This document shows positions 2 through 9,125 of a stretch of 64,000 nucleotides of DNA, piece by piece (the stretch's first letter is position 1; every line of letters starts with the position of its first letter). This stretch comes from Thiohalobacter sp. IOR34 (GTDB taxonomy: Bacteria > Pseudomonadota > Gammaproteobacteria > Thiohalobacterales > Thiohalobacteraceae): NCBI RefSeq assembly GCF_030406045.1, contig NZ_CP128988.1, forward strand, positions 1,337,438 to 1,401,437. Reading direction: 5' to 3'. A program made the position numbers and the translations under genes. The notes beneath the pieces were generated by a model. The model made no database searches. It had not been told where the DNA came from and saw nothing but the letters and a program-made list of their open reading frames with translations.

Positions 2-760
2 GAGGCTACTGGCAAGGAAGCCGGAGAGTTCCTGCCGGCCCTCAAGCCGTTGCTGCAACGCCTCACCAACTTGGCACGGGGACTCGAAGCCCCCTCGCTG
101 CACGGCCCCGATGCCGACCAGGCCCTGGTGACACTGGCAAAACGGTATCTTGCACAAAAACGCTACGCCGAGGCGGCCGTTGTGGTGCGTGAGGCTTGGG
201 TGTCACGTCATGCAACAAGTCCCGCCCAGACCAGTGCCGGCCGGGAAGGCTTCGACGAGGCCGGACGCAGGGCAGCGGAAGCCCGCTGGAACCGGGACTG
301 TGCCGAGGCCCGCGCCGTTGCCAACGTGCGCAACGACATCGAACACGGCGGCTACCGCAAGCGCCCCCTGCCGGGCGACAGCATCCGCGACCAGGTGCGA
401 ACACTGGTCGAAAACCTGGAGCAGACCGCCCGGGAACACCACACCCCGAAAAGCGCCGGGGATACCGTCGGCAAGACATGGTTCGTCAGCCGCCATCCCG
501 GCGCGGTGGAATGGGCGCAGCGCCAGGGTATCGCCGTGGACAACATGGTTGATCACCTCGATCCGGAACAGGTGGAAGCAGGCGATACCGTCATCGGCAC
601 CCTGCCGGTCCACTTGGCAGCCCGTATCTGCGAGCGAGGCGCCCGCTACTGGCACCTCACCCTGAACCTGACGGCAGACATGCGTGGCCGGGAACTGAGC
701 GCCGACGATCTGGACGCCGCCGGCGCCCGGCTGGAAGCCTTCAATATCCGCAAGGACTAA
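2..760 (+). CDS. csx16: HEPN-domain ribonuclease fused to Csx16 (5'-truncated)
   Basis: The reading frame is open from base 2, so the N-terminus lies outside the window; 252 residues are visible. The first half ends in a HEPN-type domain with the ribonuclease motif RNDIEH (R-x4-H, bases 329-346) followed by HGGYRKRPLPG, as in the C-terminal part of Csx1/TM1812-type CARF-HEPN proteins. From about base 476 to the end the protein is Csx16 (VVA1548 family): TWFVSRHPGAVEW, a DHLDP segment, GDTVIGTLPVHLAA and RGRELS. CARF-HEPN proteins are cyclic-oligoadenylate-activated ribonucleases of type III CRISPR systems; Csx16 has been linked to ring-nuclease-like activity. An upstream CARF domain is inferred, not seen. 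It ends 2 bases before the Card1 gene, so the two are co-transcribed. The fusion is unusual because Csx16 is normally a separate protein of about 100 residues. Confidence 0.82.
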   Translation, partial: EATGKEAGEFLPALKPLLQRLTNLARGLEAPSLHGPDADQALVTLAKRYLAQKRYAEAAVVVREAWVSRHATSPAQTSAGREGFDEAGRRAAEARWNRDCAEARAVANVRNDIEHGGYRKRPLPGDSIRDQVRTLVENLEQTAREHHTPKSAGDTVGKTWFVSRHPGAVEWAQRQGIAVDNMVDHLDPEQVEAGDTVIGTLPVHLAARICERGARYWHLTLNLTADMRGRELSADDLDAAGARLEAFNIRKD

Positions 761-762
761 AC

Positions 763-1890
763 ATGCACACCCACCTCTGCCTCGTCTCTGCCCAGCCGCT
801 GCCCAACCTCGTGCCCCTGATCGATCCCACCCTTGACGTGAAACGGGCCGTGCTCGCCGTGACTACGGACATGACCGAGCGCGCCGACTGGTTGGAGGCG
901 GTGCTGCGCCCGCGCGGCATTCGTGTCGAACGTCTGGAGCTGGGGGATGCCTGGGACTACGATCAGACCCAGAGCCGCATCCTTGAATGGCTCGAGCGGG
1001 AAGGGGGGGAAGGCATTGCCCTCAATGTCACCGGCGGCACCAAGCTCATGAGTATCGCCGCCTATGAAAGTTTCCGTGCCTATGACCTGCCGATATTCTA
1101 CGTCCACCCCGAACAGGACAGATTGATATGGATGAATCCGGATGATCGGGGATCCATTGATCTTGCCGACCGTGTGAAGCTCGAACCCTTTCTCCAGGCT
1201 CATGGCGCAGCGCTGCAATTGGAACCTAAACGCAACGTTCCCGAACCCGGGCGACTGGACCTGGCCGAAGAGATCGTACTTGGTCTGGACAAGTTCACCA
1301 GGATCCTGCCCAGGTTCAACTGGCTTGCCGTCGGAGCCGAGAAAACCCTGGTATCCAAGCCCCTGGAAAACGACCGGGGCGAACTGGCGGAGCTGATAGA
1401 TCTGTTCGAGGCGGCGGGTTGCCTCCGCCGCGCGAACGGCCGGCTGCGGTTCCCTGGTGAGAAGGAGCGATTCTTCGCAGCCGGCGGATGGTTGGAAATC
1501 CTCGTGTTCGATGCGGTACGGCGATTGCGCAAAGCTCGTCCGGGTATCCAGGATGTCGCTTATTCCATTCCGGTGGTGCGGGAGCAGCGGGGAAAACGCG
1601 TGCCCAACGAACTCGATGTGGCTTTTCTGTGCAACAACCGCTTGCATATCATCGAATGCAAGACACGCCAGTTCAAGGGAGAAGGCGAGGACAATGATAG
1701 CGCTCAGGCCCTGTACAAGCTGGATACGCTGCGCGACCTCATGGGTGGGCTACAGGCGCGAGCCATGCTGGTAAGCTACCAGGACTTGGAGCCGCATGAC
1801 CGGACCCGTGCCGCCGACCTCAATATTGCGGTATGTGCAGGCGCGCAGCTTCGAAACCTGCGCGCAAGTATCGGGGATTTCATGTCGTGA
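763..1890 (+). CDS. card1: Card1/Can2-like CARF nuclease of type III CRISPR
   Basis: A 375-residue protein, the same size as characterised Card1. The N-terminal CARF domain carries the nucleotide-binding loop NVTGGTKLMS (about residues 88-97). The C-terminal domain is a PD-(D/E)xK nuclease: E283 and D285 in NELDVAFL, then E298 and K300 in IIECKTRQF. Card1/Can2 enzymes are switched on by cyclic tetra-adenylate made by Cas10 and degrade single-stranded RNA and DNA or nick supercoiled DNA, slowing growth during phage infection; that activity is inferred from the family. It starts with ATG 2 bases after the HEPN-Csx16 gene and ends 208 bases before the first CRISPR repeat. The producing Cas10 is not in the window. 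Confidence 0.9.
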   Translation: MHTHLCLVSAQPLPNLVPLIDPTLDVKRAVLAVTTDMTERADWLEAVLRPRGIRVERLELGDAWDYDQTQSRILEWLEREGGEGIALNVTGGTKLMSIAAYESFRAYDLPIFYVHPEQDRLIWMNPDDRGSIDLADRVKLEPFLQAHGAALQLEPKRNVPEPGRLDLAEEIVLGLDKFTRILPRFNWLAVGAEKTLVSKPLENDRGELAELIDLFEAAGCLRRANGRLRFPGEKERFFAAGGWLEILVFDAVRRLRKARPGIQDVAYSIPVVREQRGKRVPNELDVAFLCNNRLHIIECKTRQFKGEGEDNDSAQALYKLDTLRDLMGGLQARAMLVSYQDLEPHDRTRAADLNIAVCAGAQLRNLRASIGDFMS

Positions 1891-2098
1891 ATAACTCTCG
1901 CATGAAAAAAATCCTGGTTGACACAGAGCGGTATGCTGGCATCCCTTTTACGGGAATGGGGTGTTTCACTCGCTGGAGGAATGTTGCTGATCTAGGCCCC
2001 GGAGTTCGTGTAATGATCGTGTCAACTTGTTGGCATGTCATGATTTCCATAAACCCGCATGTAACTGATTGGACAAAGGAGGAAAACAGCATTGAGCG
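1891..2098 (+). promoter_or_regulatory. CRISPR leader (putative)
   Basis: A 208-base non-coding stretch between the Card1 stop codon and the first repeat, more AT-rich than the flanking cas genes. It contains TTGACA at 1918-1923 as a possible -35 box, without a convincing -10 box at the right distance, and a strong Shine-Dalgarno-like AAAGGAGG at 2076-2083 just before the array. The position upstream of repeats whose 3' end (ATTAAGAC) looks like a crRNA 5' handle supports leader function. The alternative is that the array is read the other way, from the 78 bases before cas2; this is judged less likely. Confidence 0.6.
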
Positions 2099-3216
2099 GT
2101 TCGAGATAGAGACCTTATGAAGAAGGGATTAAGACTTCACAAGGGGCGGCCGGAGCGCGCACCATTCCTTGTTCGAGATAGAGACCTTATGAAGAAGGGA
2201 TTAAGACGCCGGAGCGCGCACCATTCCTTGTAGGAAATCGGTTCGAGATAGAGACCTTATGAAGAAGGGATTAAGACTCGGCCTCGGCCTTGGGCTTGTC
2301 GGCCGCGCGCGTTCGAGATAGAGACCTTATGAAGAAGGGATTAAGACCTTTTGCGCTGCGCTTCTTTCGATGCGCTCTTTTGTTCGAGATAGAGACCTTA
2401 TGAAGAAGGGATTAAGACCCAGCGCTGCCGCTGGCGTTCACCACCGGCGGAGTTCGAGATAGAGACCTTATGAAGAAGGGATTAAGACCCGTAGAGCCCC
2501 CGTTACCAAAGGCACCCCACAGTTCGAGATAGAGACCTTATGAAGAAGGGATTAAGACAGGCCGATCTCTCGCCATTCGGCGAGGGCTGCGTTCGAGATA
2601 GAGACCTTATGAAGAAGGGATTAAGACTCAGCGGCCGAGGCGGTGTCTACATCGAATGGTGTTCGAGATAGAGACCTTATGAAGAAGGGATTAAGACCGA
2701 GTCCACCATTGCTGGTGAACTCGTTCCACGCGTTCGAGATAGAGACCTTATGAAGAAGGGATTAAGACTGTCGGCCTTGTCGGCCTTGTCGGCCGCCCGC
2801 CGGTTCGAGATAGAGACCTTATGAAGAAGGGATTAAGACGCAGCTACGCGCCTCGATGTACCCCTCAACGAATGTTCGAGATAGAGACCTTATGAAGAAG
2901 GGATTAAGACGTCAAGGGTAAGGACCTCGCCAGCGGCTGAGGTTCGAGATAGAGACCTTATGAAGAAGGGATTAAGACGAGACCGCCCAAGAGATAACCC
3001 CTTCCACCGCATAGTTCGAGATAGAGACCTTATGAAGAAGGGATTAAGACCTTGGCCCATACGCTAAAAGCGTTTTGGGCCGTTTGTTCGAGATAGAGAC
3101 CTTATGAAGAAGGGATTAAGACGCGTAGCCTGCGGCGAACTCGCCGCGAAATTTCTGTTCGAGATAGAGACCTTATGAAGAAGGGATTATTGAGCCTTGC
3201 ATAAATGATGAACACA

Positions 3217-3789
3217 TCACAAAGGAAGCTCGGCCTGTTTCCAGAACGCGGTCACCAGTGTCTTCTGGCGTCGCTGCATGGAACGGAGCCTGCGCCGGGC
3301 ATAGTCACTCAATTCACCGATGTCCCTGGGACAGAAGTTACCCAGCTCATGCGGTTTGAGATGCCCGAACAGATATTCAACCGGGTTGAGCTCCGGCGAA
3401 TAGGCCGGCAGGAACTCGATCTGAATCTGCCCATTGCAATCCTCGACATACTGACGGACCAGGCGGCTCTTGTGGACCTGCAGGCCATCCCAGATGATCA
3501 GCAGCTTCCTGCCGATCTGGCGCTTGAGTGCCTTGAGGAACTCGATGCACTGGGGGGCACGGATCGTACCGGGGAACAGACGAAAGTAGAAACGCCAGAA
3601 GCTGACCCCGGCGATCACCGACAGCTGCTTCCAGGTGAAGCTGTACTGGATGACAGGCGTCTGTCCCTTCGGTGCCCAGGTGCGCACCAGTGTGGGCCGT
3701 TCCGACAGACCCGATTCATCGACAAACACGATCACACGCCCCTCTTTTGCAGCGTTTTTTTTAGTGCCGGCCAGCGCTTGGTCTTCCAC
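3217..3789 (-). CDS. IS630 transposase, catalytic DDE frame (OrfB)
   Basis: Carries the full DDE catalytic triad of IS630 transposases: D in VFVDESGLS, D in IIWDGLQVHKS, and E in YSPELNPVEYLF. It overlaps OrfA by 58 bases and is in the -1 frame relative to it, so a fused OrfAB of about 341 residues, the usual IS630 transposase length, would be made by -1 frameshifting. Independent initiation at ATG 3789 is possible but unlikely to give a functional DNA-binding enzyme. It is read toward the leader, opposite to the array. Confidence 0.9.
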   Translation of the reverse strand: MEDQALAGTKKNAAKEGRVIVFVDESGLSERPTLVRTWAPKGQTPVIQYSFTWKQLSVIAGVSFWRFYFRLFPGTIRAPQCIEFLKALKRQIGRKLLIIWDGLQVHKSRLVRQYVEDCNGQIQIEFLPAYSPELNPVEYLFGHLKPHELGNFCPRDIGELSDYARRRLRSMQRRQKTLVTAFWKQAELPL

Positions 3790-4220
3790 TCCCGCACCGC
3801 ACGCTCATCGCGCTGCAAGGCGCGCCGGGCCGGCCGCTGGCAGCTGAACCCCATGCGCCCCAGCACGCGGGAGACCTGCGACTCTGACAGCTGCACCCCG
3901 AACTGCTCGTCCAGCACCTTCCGCACACGCCCCAGGGTCCAGACCTCGGTGGCAAACCCGCTGGCCAGCGCGCCTTTCAACAGGATCCGCTTCAGCTCAC
4001 GCAGGTCGGCCTTGTCCAGCGAACCCGGACGGCCGCGCAGACCTGTCGACCGCAGCGCATCCAATCCGCCTTGTTCCAGGCGCCGGGCCCACCCGCAGAC
4101 CGTTGATCGGGCTACTCCCACGCGTCGCGCCACTTCCGCCTGGGGGACGCCTTTCAAGAGAAGGCGGCCGGCCCGCAGTCGCCGCTTCTCCAGCTCTTTG
4201 CATTGCGTCTTGCTGTCCAT
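3732..4220 (-). CDS. IS630 transposase, N-terminal frame (OrfA)
   Basis: A 162-residue protein with a helix-turn-helix region near the N-terminus (PQAEVARRVGVARSTVCGW, about residues 26-44) and a second winged-helix-like part containing LSESQVSRVLGRMGF. These are the DNA-binding modules that recognise IS630 inverted repeats. It lacks the catalytic domain, which is in the overlapping -1 frame. The stop codon is shortly after a run of eight A residues on the coding strand, a classical slippery site. It starts at ATG 4220 on the minus strand, 57 bases inside the inverted repeat. Confidence 0.88.
   Translation of the reverse strand: MDSKTQCKELEKRRLRAGRLLLKGVPQAEVARRVGVARSTVCGWARRLEQGGLDALRSTGLRGRPGSLDKADLRELKRILLKGALASGFATEVWTLGRVRKVLDEQFGVQLSESQVSRVLGRMGFSCQRPARRALQRDERAVREWKTKRWPALKKTLQKRGV
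3755..3762 (-). other. A8 slippery site for -1 frameshifting
   Basis: Eight T residues on the given strand read as A8 on the transposase strand, inside the OrfA/OrfB overlap. OrfA is read CTA AAA AAA ACG; slipping back one base gives AAC GCT and continues in OrfB. Such A-runs drive programmed frameshifting in several IS630-family elements; function here is inferred from position. Confidence 0.65.
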
Positions 4221-7060
4221 GGAATCCTCCCAACATACCCGATTCCATAGACAACGAAAACAGAATAATGTTCACTATTTATGCAAGGCTCAATAAGACG
4301 CGCCCTTGCAATCCCAAGGCCCAAGACGTCAGAGTTCGAGATAGAGACCTTATGAAGAAGGGATTAAGACAGTCATTATTGACCTAACTCGCCCTAAATT
4401 GGTTCGAGATAGAGACCTTATGAAGAAGGGATTAAGACTTCGGGTCGACTGGGCTATCCGGCACCAGATAGTTCGAGATAGAGACCTTATGAAGAAGGGA
4501 TTAAGACATATTGGATTTTTTTCATGTTTTTCTCCTCTGTTAGTTCGAGATAGAGACCTTATGAAGAAGGGATTAAGACTCATGAGGTGTGGCCGGAGAG
4601 ACATCCATTCTCTGTTCGAGATAGAGACCTTATGAAGAAGGGATTAAGACGCCGATCTTGCGGCCGACTGCTACGGCCGCGTGTTCGAGATAGAGACCTT
4701 ATGAAGAAGGGATTAAGACGCGCTCCATATCAGGCTCTGGTTCAGACAAGCGTTCGAGATAGAGACCTTATGAAGAAGGGATTAAGACGCGTCCGGCGAC
4801 GCCGACTTTTGGATCTCGACTACGTTCGAGATAGAGACCTTATGAAGAAGGGATTAAGACTCTTATTGACCAATCTACAAGCTGCTCTTGGAAGGTTCGA
4901 GATAGAGACCTTATGAAGAAGGGATTAAGACCCAGCGCGCGCGTTGCGCTTGCGCTGCGCCTCTGTTCGAGATAGAGACCTTATGAAGAAGGGATTAAGA
5001 CCAAGGCCGATCTCGCGCCATTCGGCGAGGGCTGTTCGAGATAGAGACCTTATGAAGAAGGGATTAAGACCGGCCTTGTCGGCCTTGTTGCCGTCGCCGG
5101 GCTTGTTCGAGATAGAGACCTTATGAAGAAGGGATTAAGACTCATTGAAGGTTATGACGTGGCCGGCCTTTGTGTTCGAGATAGAGACCTTATGAAGAAG
5201 GGATTAAGACGCGAATTCGCCGCGCAATTCCTTTGCGCGCTCCCGTTCGAGATAGAGACCTTATGAAGAAGGGATTAAGACCGATTCCTCAGCCTCTCGA
5301 AGAAGCTCATACGCGATGGGTTCGAGATAGAGACCTTATGAAGAAGGGATTAAGACACCACCGGCGGAGGCGCCTTGTCGGCCTTGTCGGGTTCGAGATA
5401 GAGACCTTATGAAGAAGGGATTAAGACCTCGGGCTGATCTCGGTATACCCTTTCATGAGGGTTCGAGATAGAGACCTTATGAAGAAGGGATTAAGACGGC
5501 CTTGAGGGCCGCCTTCTTGCTGTGATATACGGTTCGAGATAGAGACCTTATGAAGAAGGGATTAAGACCGCTATACATGGTTCTTTCTCCTGTGGTTTGT
5601 GTTCGAGATAGAGACCTTATGAAGAAGGGATTAAGACGCAGCATCAGGCCAGTTTTCCATCAGTCTTCGTTCGAGATAGAGACCTTATGAAGAAGGGATT
5701 AAGACGTCCATGTCGGACGCAGCCGAGAGGCCGGAGTGTTCGAGATAGAGACCTTATGAAGAAGGGATTAAGACCCACCAGGGGCATGTCCATGCACCCC
5801 TTGATGGCGTTCGAGATAGAGACCTTATGAAGAAGGGATTAAGACCGCTGCGTCCATGTCGGACGCAGCCGAGAGGCCGGAGTTCGAGATAGAGACCTTA
5901 TGAAGAAGGGATTAAGACCCTCGGATGCCCACCGAGCCCCGGCCATGGCCAGGGTTCGAGATAGAGACCTTATGAAGAAGGGATTAAGACGGCAGCGGGC
6001 TTCATAGCTCGATGATCTCTGCCGTGTTCGAGATAGAGACCTTATGAAGAAGGGATTAAGACGTGTATTCGCGGCCGTCTTCAATGGCGGCCGCGGGTTC
6101 GAGATAGAGACCTTATGAAGAAGGGATTAAGACTCAGCGGTCTCCAGGTACTCCCCAACGCCCCAGTTCGAGATAGAGACCTTATGAAGAAGGGATTAAG
6201 ACCCCATGGGCCGCCTCGGATGCCCACCGAGCCCCGGTTCGAGATAGAGACCTTATGAAGAAGGGATTAAGACGTTAGCATGTTATATGGGATTTTCATG
6301 GTCTTTTTGTTCGAGATAGAGACCTTATGAAGAAGGGATTAAGACCGCGGCTCCAGATGTAGTACACGGTCATGATGTGTTCGAGATAGAGACCTTATGA
6401 AGAAGGGATTAAGACGCGGGCGGGGGTCAGTGTCGATCATTCCTGCGTGTTCGAGATAGAGACCTTATGAAGAAGGGATTAAGACTCGGTGTTCATGATC
6501 TTACCCCTCTTGGTCTGTTGTTCGAGATAGAGACCTTATGAAGAAGGGATTAAGACCCCTTCCAGTCGACCGTCTTGCGGCAGCTCTCGAGTTCGAGATA
6601 GAGACCTTATGAAGAAGGGATTAAGACCACACACGGCCCGTCATTTCGTCGCTGACCTCGGTTCGAGATAGAGACCTTATGAAGAAGGGATTAAGACACA
6701 TCTTTGATGTCTCGTTCATCTACATCTCCTGTTCGAGATAGAGACCTTATGAAGAAGGGATTAAGACCAGGGCCAGGGAGATGCCCAACCAGACCGGTGG
6801 GTTCGAGATAGAGACCTTATGAAGAAGGGATTAAGACCCAGCGTCCACCGTCGCGGATGGCGTAGGTGTATTGTTCGAGATAGAGACCTTATGAAGAAGG
6901 GATTAAGACACCTCTTTGATGGTCATATTGCGCACCGTCACCTCTGTTCGAGATAGAGACCTTATGAAGAAGGGATTAAGACGGTTCACTCTCCTATTTG
7001 AATGGCATGGCAAGCTTGCCGTTTTCTCATCTTGCCTGACCTTGGTGTCAAGCTGTTCAC

Positions 7061-7345
7061 ATGCCGAAGCGGCAACTCTATCTGGTGGCTTATGATGTTT
7101 CCGATGCTAGGCGGCTGCGATGCATGCTCGGCGCGGTGAAGGCGCATGCTACCGGCGGGCAGAAATCGGTATTTGAGTGCTACCTCTCAGAAGTTGAACG
7201 GACAGGGTTGTTGCGAGAGGTCGGAGATATCCTGGATTTGGAGGAAGACCGTTTTTTCCTGATCCGCCTCGACCCCAGGTCGCGTGTGAGAACGCTTGGT
7301 CGGGCAGTGCCGGTGGCGGATCCAGACTTTTTCTATGTGGGTTGA
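7061..7345 (+). CDS. cas2: CRISPR-associated endoribonuclease/adaptation protein Cas2 (first copy)
   Basis: A 94-residue Cas2. The ferredoxin-like first strand and metal-binding Asp are in YLVAYDVSD (D12); the family motif KAHATGGQKSVFECYL and the C-terminal RLDPRSRVRTLG complete the fold. Cas2 forms the central dimer of the Cas1-Cas2 integrase. It starts 78 bases after the last repeat and no clear Shine-Dalgarno sequence is visible, so it may be translated from a transcript that reads through the array. The stop overlaps a possible TTG start of cas1. It belongs to a clearly different Cas2 subgroup from the second copy at 9112. Confidence 0.93.
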   Translation: MPKRQLYLVAYDVSDARRLRCMLGAVKAHATGGQKSVFECYLSEVERTGLLREVGDILDLEEDRFFLIRLDPRSRVRTLGRAVPVADPDFFYVG

Positions 7346-7368
7346 CGCGGCCGTTGGAGAAACGTGTC

Positions 7369-8316
7369 ATGGGCATGCTGTATGTGGATAGGAAAAATGT
7401 GGAACTGCGCCATGAGGGTGGCCGCATTCTGGTCTATGAGCAAGGCCGGTGTAGCGGTTCGGTACCCTTGGCGCAGTTGGAGGCTGTAGTGGTACAGGGC
7501 CATGCGCTGCTTGATACCGGCTTGCTTCGGGCACTTGCTGGAGCTGGGGTGGGTTTGCTGGTTCTTGATTCACGTCGACCGGAATTCACGTCAAGGTTAG
7601 AAGGGCGATCCCACAATCAGTCCAGCCGCCGGCTGGAACAGTATCGTCGTTCACTGGATGAAACATGGAGGGCGCGCTTCTCCAAGCTGTTAGTCAGGCG
7701 AAAGGTTCGCGAACAGCGGCGTCTGTTGGCCGAGGCGTTGTCGCGCCGCCCCGATTTGCGGAGATCTTTGCTATCGGCTGTGCGGGATCTGGATGCGAGG
7801 CTTTGTGAATTGGGTGAAGGCATGCCGTCACGCGAGCGTTTGCGTGGCCTGGAAGGGGTGGCAGCGCGCGACTATTTTCAGGGCTATTGTCGCCTTTTTC
7901 CACGTTCGGTCAATTTTACTGGACGCAATCGTCGGCCGCCTCGCGACCCGGTGAATGCGTGTCTGTCGCTTGCTTATACCCTTCTGCAGGCAGAGGCAGT
8001 GCGGGCGGTACAGGTTGCTGGTCTCGATCCCATGCTTGGCTTCTTTCATGATGTGGCATTTGGACGTGATTCATTGGCGTGCGATCTCGTTGAGCCTCTG
8101 AGGCCGAGTGTGGACCGCCTGGTCTGGGAGTTGTTCAGGATGAGGTCTCTGACCGCGGAACATTTCTCGTCGAGCGAAGGGGGGTGCCTCTTAGGGAAGG
8201 GAGGGCGGAGAATCTTCTATTCAGCATTCGAATCACAGATGCCGCCCATTCGCCGGAAGTTACGTAAATATGCACTGTTGCTGGCGCGTTCCCTCGAGGG
8301 GCGGGAGGATGCATGA
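7369..8316 (+). CDS. cas1: CRISPR integrase Cas1 (catalytically complete)
   Basis: 315 residues from ATG 7369, which has GGAGA ten bases upstream; a TTG at 7342 overlapping the cas2 stop is the alternative start. The N-terminal beta domain begins MLYVDRKNVELR. The C-terminal helical domain has the metal-binding triad E162 (LRGLEGVAARDYF), H227 (GFFHDVAFGR) and D239 (LACDLVEPLRP). Cas1 integrates new spacers at the leader end of the array together with Cas2. The stop overlaps the start of the Cas1-like gene by 4 bases, indicating translational coupling. Confidence 0.95.
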   Translation: MGMLYVDRKNVELRHEGGRILVYEQGRCSGSVPLAQLEAVVVQGHALLDTGLLRALAGAGVGLLVLDSRRPEFTSRLEGRSHNQSSRRLEQYRRSLDETWRARFSKLLVRRKVREQRRLLAEALSRRPDLRRSLLSAVRDLDARLCELGEGMPSRERLRGLEGVAARDYFQGYCRLFPRSVNFTGRNRRPPRDPVNACLSLAYTLLQAEAVRAVQVAGLDPMLGFFHDVAFGRDSLACDLVEPLRPSVDRLVWELFRMRSLTAEHFSSSEGGCLLGKGGRRIFYSAFESQMPPIRRKLRKYALLLARSLEGREDA

Positions 8317-9125
8317 GCAGGGTACTCTATCTCGATGGTGTCCGTTCCCTTCGGGTATTGCGGGATGGTCCTGCCTTGCGGGTATGCTGCCTTGGTGAGG
8401 CGGACCGGCTCTTTCCACTCGGGCGGTTGTCGCGGGTGGTAGTTCTGGGTCGCGTCGACTGGACGACGGATGCTTTGATGGCTTGCGCAGAAGAACATGT
8501 GGCGGTTGAGTTCCTGAGGCGTAATGGCACACCCAAGGCGCGCTTTTCATGTGTCTCCGATGAAGGCAAGCCGCTGGTGGAAATGGGTGTGCTGTTGGAC
8601 GAGTTGCTGGATGCTTCTGACGGCGACGAGCGTTATCACGCCTGGGTTGCAGGACAGGAGACGGCAGCTCGGCTGGCATTGAGGAATAGCAGTGACTGGT
8701 CTTCATGTCCGGTAGAGGCAGGAGCACTGCGCCGGATGCTTCGTCGGCGGGTTCTTCCATATGTACATGGTGTCGACCTGGATTGTTTCGACAGCCGTTT
8801 GAGGGGGTTGATCGTTGCTCTGTTGGACGGGTTGTTGCGGCGTTATGGTATTGATCCGGGGGCACCTTCGCTGACTGTTTCGGGGATCAATATAGCAGGT
8901 GATCTTGCAACGATTATTTTGTGGGAACTTGAACCCGGCAAGTTGACCTTCATCCGGCGTTTTGGCCGTTCAGCGCGCCGGCATACAGGTGGGAAGGCCA
9001 GGCTCCCGCTGTATTCCGCAGTGCGATTCTTCGAGGCACAGTCAGATGATATCTCGGAGAAATCGCAGAGATTACTGCGGCGCTTGCATTTGTTTCTCTT
9101 GGAGGCGCCGGGTGGCCGTTCGTGA
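8313..9125 (+). CDS. Degenerate Cas1 paralogue lacking catalytic residues
   Basis: 270 residues. The N-terminal domain is Cas1-like: VLYLDGVRSLRVL, then PLGRLSRVVVLGRVDWTTDALMACAEE and VAVEFLRRNG parallel the same positions in the upstream Cas1. The C-terminal part keeps a recognisable frame (GIDPGAPSLTVSGINIAGD, then LATIILWELEP aligning with LACDLVEPLRP) but has no counterpart of the catalytic Glu motif GLEG and no His in the FHD position; only the final Asp may remain. It should therefore be inactive as an integrase and could be a structural subunit, for example half of a Cas1-Cas1' heterodimer. It is coupled to cas1 by a 4-base overlap and overlaps cas2' by 14 bases. A divergent, unrelated fold is not fully excluded. 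Confidence 0.75.
   Translation: MSRVLYLDGVRSLRVLRDGPALRVCCLGEADRLFPLGRLSRVVVLGRVDWTTDALMACAEEHVAVEFLRRNGTPKARFSCVSDEGKPLVEMGVLLDELLDASDGDERYHAWVAGQETAARLALRNSSDWSSCPVEAGALRRMLRRRVLPYVHGVDLDCFDSRLRGLIVALLDGLLRRYGIDPGAPSLTVSGINIAGDLATIILWELEPGKLTFIRRFGRSARRHTGGKARLPLYSAVRFFEAQSDDISEKSQRLLRRLHLFLLEAPGGRS

Follow-up and report, generated by a model that had tools for sequence, protein, structure and literature searches.

The CRISPR array of Thiohalobacter sp. IOR34 raises the question of whether its crRNAs are antisense to the messages of invaders, as an earlier note on this DNA had claimed, and whether translation-initiation regions are a preferred target or simply a part of the targeted mRNA. 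The window, a stretch of 64,000 nucleotides from a complete 2.96 Mb genome, carries a type III-B (Cmr) CRISPR-Cas locus with csx16, Card1, cas2, cas1 and a diverged cas1, arranged as follows:

50 to 760, plus strand: csx16-type open reading frame (Pfam Cas_VVA1548, 4.9e-38; PADLOC CARF_HEPN_CSX16, 4e-87)
763 to 1890, plus strand: Card1/Can2-like CARF nuclease gene (Pfam Card1_endonuc, 3.4e-34; CARF_Card1, 1.1e-14)
1891 to 2098, plus strand: leader, with a block at about 2019-2098, right before the first repeat, conserved across related loci
2099 to 6982, plus strand: CRISPR array in which 54 repeats of 37 nt alternate with 53 spacers of 31-38 nt, transcribed left to right
3190 to 4293, minus strand: IS630-like insertion with ends TTGAGCCTTGCATAAAT and its inverted form and a TA duplication, splitting one CRISPR repeat
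7061 to 7345, plus strand: cas2 (Pfam CRISPR_Cas2, 2.2e-11)
7342 to 8316, plus strand: cas1, encoding 324 aa without a reverse-transcriptase domain (Pfam Cas_Cas1, 3.9e-72)
8313 to 9125, plus strand: second, diverged cas1, or cas1' (PADLOC 'Cas1, diverged variant, second in the loci', 1.2e-8)

The assignment to type III-B follows the Cmr effector set, encoded left of the array in an operon with a CARF gene, a Cmr1-like gene (4e-7), Cas10b (Cmr2, 2e-90), Cmr3 (6e-65), Cmr4 (2e-59), Cmr5 (1e-22) and Cmr6 (7e-35), together with the linked array and the cyclic-oligoadenylate effectors Card1 and Csx16/CARF. Regarding the csx16-type frame, its C-terminal part corresponds to Csx16 and its N-terminal stretch is similar to the last part of CARF-HEPN proteins; its start is truncated by the choice of reading frame, and the gene may start left of the window. 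The IS630-like element holds two overlapping minus-strand reading frames (3217-3789 and 3732-4220) and has four other near-identical copies elsewhere in the genome. Cas1' looks catalytically degenerate, because the positions aligned to Glu171 and His236 of Cas1 are not kept in any of the 15 sequences compared.

The direction of the array was derived from related loci, gathered by repeat and by Cas1' similarity, most of which keep the gene order csx16, Card1, array, cas2, cas1 and cas1'. The repeats of these relatives vary at their 5' ends and share an invariant 3' end, AAGGGATTAAGAC; the repeat 3' end would supply the candidate crRNA 5' tag, ATTAAGAC. Upstream of the first repeats an alignable AACCC..TAAC..TTG..AAAGGAG motif is present, and a degenerate terminal repeat closes several related arrays on the right. 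With the conserved leader on the left, degenerate repeats on the right and the repeat 3' end invariant, the array reads left to right, the plus strand being the crRNA and its complement the predicted target RNA; leader and repeat conservation thus confirm the orientation proposed earlier.

Read on that complement, the five spacers singled out in the earlier note, at the coordinates it gave, each carry a Shine-Dalgarno (SD) sequence, an ATG and a frame open to the spacer end, and a sixth, spacer 49, had escaped that list:

4508 to 4542, minus strand: spacer 19, complement GAGGAG-6-ATG (GAGGAG-6-ATGAAAAAAATC)
5569 to 5600, minus strand: spacer 34, complement AGGAG-8-ATG (AGGAG-8-ATGTATAGC)
6486 to 6519, minus strand: spacer 47, complement GAGGGG-7-ATG (GAGGGG-7-ATGAACACC)
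6628 to 6660, minus strand: spacer 49, complement GAGG-11-ATG (GAGG-11-ATGACGGGC)
6698 to 6730, minus strand: spacer 50, complement AGGAG-6-ATG (AGGAG-6-ATGAACGAGACA)
6910 to 6945, minus strand: spacer 53, the last, complement GAGGTGA-11-ATG (GAGGTGA-11-ATGACCATCAAA), with a gap exceeding that of the fixed rule given below

The spacer at 4371-4401, whose complement reads AGGT-5-ATG, had likewise not been listed. Three further spacers described as carrying plausible starts (spacers 44-46, within 6274 to 6448, minus strand) do have an ATG on the complement but lack a convincing, properly spaced SD, as those at 6274-6308 and 6346-6378 have an ATG without an SD and, at 6416-6448, AGGA abuts the ATG.

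The observation was confirmed when SD and ATG were scored on both strands of all 53 spacers against shuffled controls, as had been proposed. Under a fixed rule (GGAG, GAGG or AGGA, a gap of 4-11 nt, ATG and an open frame), six spacers were found on the complement and none on the plus strand, where dinucleotide shuffles expect 1.9 and 1.2, respectively (complement P = 0.009); one of those caught, at 6203-6236, is probably no real start. With a wider SD set the counts were eight and zero (P = 0.001, dinucleotide shuffles). The equal frequency on the sense strand that would have spoken against the claim was thus not seen. These P values are post hoc, because the pattern was first noticed in the same array. 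The SD+ATG spacers are a minority (6-8 of 53) lying toward the leader-distal end (P = 0.0015-0.04 by definition), so start sites are not what this array targets as a rule.

The strand bias is very strong and was replicated in a pool of 1382 unique spacers from related arrays, mainly of Methylococcales, in which SD+ATG occurs 62 times on the complement and eight times on the crRNA strand (P = 2e-11), and ATGAAA 61 and nine times, respectively; many of these SD+ATG spacers resemble textbook start regions. Strand consistency can also be measured with no knowledge of the phages, from the relative direction of overlapping spacers. Among the overlapping or near-identical spacer pairs (E = 0.001), all 51 were parallel, and 30 of them are staggered by at least 3 nt and are therefore not array duplications. 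Random flipping of spacers leaves 40-60% of pairs opposite, while none of the 30 staggered pairs is, so that at least 95% of spacers would lie on one strand. A codon-usage classifier, saturated for the present array, called 85 ± 2% of the related pool antisense, probably an underestimate because untranslated targets are included. In addition, the purine content of the complement is above that of the phage sense strand in all GC bins. A transcript-antisense bias is therefore seen by sequence signatures rather than by mapped protospacers, and the crRNAs of this array and of dozens of relatives would base-pair nearly exclusively with the message strand of genes in invaders. The earlier proposal that the crRNAs are antisense to mRNA is borne out in this respect, and this strand part fits the known behaviour of type III systems.

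Within the present array, spacers 36 and 38 behave in the same manner, as they share a 30-nt overlap on one strand and would be independent acquisitions from one target:

5706 to 5881, plus strand: spacers 36 and 38

Similar pairs are formed by spacers 1/2, 7/26 and 39/43. Spacers 7 and 26 have nearly the same target, with one base different and shifted ends, as if taken twice from related invaders. Spacers 3, 5, 10, 27 and 31 (2278-2310, 2419-2451, 2769-2802, 5071-5104 and 5357-5390) would repeatedly target a coding repeat of the ADKADKA/PPVVNASG kind, all in one direction.

Whether start sites are enriched beyond mRNA in general depends on a baseline in which every spacer is antisense and randomly placed, for which strand-annotated phage genomes and viral contigs totalling about 1 Mb were used, GC-matched and not taken from the true target phages. 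For this array, such placement in phage genomes expects 1.2-1.6 SD+ATG spacers against the six observed (P = 0.0005-0.005), and 1.8 when strand is ignored (P = 0.007). In the related arrays, whose spacers (MK-start clusters) are not fully independent, SD+ATG was found in 62 against 42.0 expected (1.48 fold, P = 0.0016), ATGAAA in 61 against 31.3 (P below 0.0001) and the wider SD set in 84 against 63.7; strict 5-mer SDs gave no excess in these arrays (22 against 21.8), and the strand-agnostic count was 70 against 57.4 (P = 0.057). The excess over the GC-matched viral expectation is then 1.0-1.95 fold by definition in the relatives and about fivefold here (6 against 1.2), the latter being post hoc.

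It is quite possible, if somewhat short of an even chance, that chance and post hoc choice, added to a genuine antisense bias, account for most of the start-site excess seen in this array, since the pattern was first noticed in it, and the relatives show a small excess that vanishes with 5-mer SDs and narrows when strand is ignored. The size of the excess here and the probabilities obtained for SD+ATG and ATGAAA in the separate set speak against this. Start regions thus appear to be in modest excess across the family and in greater excess in this array, an effect that is probably real but modest. The idea of initiation regions as the preferred target holds as an excess but not as a rule, as most spacers, here and in the relatives, lie elsewhere. 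Start regions were called a sensible target for a type III system; a special translation-blocking role is not needed, because type III effectors cut whichever transcript they are paired with. A fixed, ribosome-footprint-like position of the start codon within spacers was ruled out, as the offsets are spread.

Strand bias together with an excess at 5' ends is also what the capture of RNA might give, if a reverse transcriptase copied the spacers as it does in RT-Cas1 systems. This is very improbable, as no RVT_1 match exists anywhere in the genome, no reverse transcriptase is fused to or lies beside Cas1 as in RT-associated type III adaptation, and the Cas1 of about 320 aa carries no fused one in any related locus examined; the copying would need a trans-acting enzyme of a family outside RVT_1. 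Moreover, RT-active systems are described, in a review, as having no strand bias at most genes (PMC9048733). The RT-Cas1 type III systems of Marinomonas and Fusicatenibacter share with this locus a type III effector with its own adaptation module, but differ by the reverse transcriptase, none being found here.

The targets were sought directly by protospacer searches. For this array, comparison with 50,697 phages gave only weak, low-complexity or chance matches (best E = 0.09), and among plasmids the sole match was a related array in Methylocaldum szegediense, carried on the 25.7 kb plasmid NZ_OX458334.1. Two Methylococcales arrays gave no protospacer in phages, and neither exact or wobble-pattern scans of IMG/VR with spacers 36/38, 47, 7/26 and 39/43 nor a pattern scan there with one start region common to related arrays gave a match. 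Among genomes of the class or family, the matches were arrays plus a single match of spacer 33 (5498-5531), over 25 of 26 nt, to a SulP sulfate permease gene in a different gammaproteobacterium (L402 1505-1530); this match is antisense, near the 3' end of the gene and not its start, and borderline across 369 genomes. No convincing phage protospacer was found, so that invader mRNA as the target is inferred from sequence signatures. That the system regulates genes of the host by binding their translation-start regions, suggested by the likeness of crRNAs antisense to an SD and start codon to sRNA regulation, is next to negligible in probability, as none of the spacers here has a match in the host genome, the best match outside arrays and insertion sequences having E = 0.08.

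Taken together, this is probably, with good confidence, an ordinary type III-B array that encodes crRNAs antisense to the mRNAs of invaders, that has lost wrong-orientation spacers and in which starts are modestly enriched. The Cas1/Cas1'/Cas2 machinery would take up spacers with no reverse transcriptase involved, and wrongly oriented ones would be lost because the Cmr complex cannot act on RNA to which it does not pair; base-pairing of the crRNA would then trigger cleavage of the target RNA and cyclic oligoadenylate signalling to Card1 and other CARF proteins. The modest start excess across the family could arise because every gene has a start and the 5' parts of early transcripts may be good targets or good acquisition substrates, and the larger excess here may reflect a few gene-dense invaders sampled within one period. 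Selection on top of some uptake bias is favoured, since every type III system needs spacers in the antisense direction to function. An uptake bias is consistent with three related spacers with a boxA core and with an excess of strong hairpins (z below -2), which make up 15% of spacers in this array and 10.1% of the related ones against 6.1% of viral segments. Spacers 9, 10, 14, 38 and 41 of this array have very strong hairpins (z below -3.5).

It is rather doubtful that the orientation and start-site biases arise at acquisition, with the coding strand, single-stranded during transcription near promoters and start codons, being preferred by an RT-free Cas1-Cas2 and integrated in a fixed direction. 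The hairpins and the uniformly parallel pairs would fit this explanation, but natural arrays cannot separate uptake from selection, and RT-free Cas1-Cas2 enzymes are not known to integrate in a fixed direction without a PAM. As described by Artamonova et al. (2020), the RT-free type III system of Thermus thermophilus acquired both strands when selection was absent, its bias being made by selection (PMC7515739). Like the present family, it combines the lack of a reverse transcriptase with a strong bias to transcript-targeting spacers, and its spacer hot spots in early genes were shown to come from selection; the difference is that infection experiments were used there, while natural arrays with a second, diverged Cas1 are considered here. 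In favour of acquisition, the naive uptake by the type III-A system of Streptococcus thermophilus (Zhang et al., 2021), according to a review, is enriched at hairpins and, on the encoding strand, within the 10-50 bp that follow start codons (PMC9048733). Both systems are RT-free with encoding-strand spacers near starts and at hairpins, although S. thermophilus acquired from its own genome and past the start, and the spacers of the present array contain the SD and start codon themselves.

Regarding natural arrays, Vink et al. (2021) reported a coding-strand bias of 65% on average for type III and 88% for Moraxella III-B (PMC8482600). Those III-B arrays also have spacers complementary to mRNA; in contrast, the present family appears to have at least 95% of its spacers on one strand by the pair test, which needs no protospacers, and 85% by coding potential. 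This near-total purity exceeds the type III average, and selection alone may not explain it. A more specific mechanism, improbable in our estimate, is that Cas1-Cas1'-Cas2 without a reverse transcriptase selects and orients transcript-matching spacers at acquisition, favouring transcript 5' regions (start codons and boxA leaders), with the degenerate Cas1' making the integrase asymmetric and fixing the direction. Should the purity be fixed during uptake, Cas1' would be an obvious candidate, and with its conserved locus, paired Cas1/Cas1' and hundreds of arrays this III-B family offers a clean case for weighing selection alone against biased uptake in RT-free type III systems. Published work already covers type III strand bias, its selective origin where no RT is present, and an enrichment of spacers immediately downstream of start codons; the near-total strand consistency in this family and the independently tested, modest start-site excess are new.

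In related arrays, spacer 59 of locus L071 and spacers 3 and 10 of L079 are antisense to the boxA core GCTCTTTAACAATTYGG, a transcript-leader (antitermination) element present in at least 120 viral contigs. Host rRNA leaders were ruled out as their source, as only the 17-nt boxA core is in common; since host rRNA operons share the core only and so many viral contigs carry it, phage antitermination leaders are suggested as the targets. Finally, in three Methylotuvimicrobium-type arrays, spacer 57 of L071, spacer 2 of L097 and the last spacer of L114 contain one start region, about AAACCGGAGAGARATCATGA, followed by differing coding sequence, and one SD context may have been reused by an invader for several genes.
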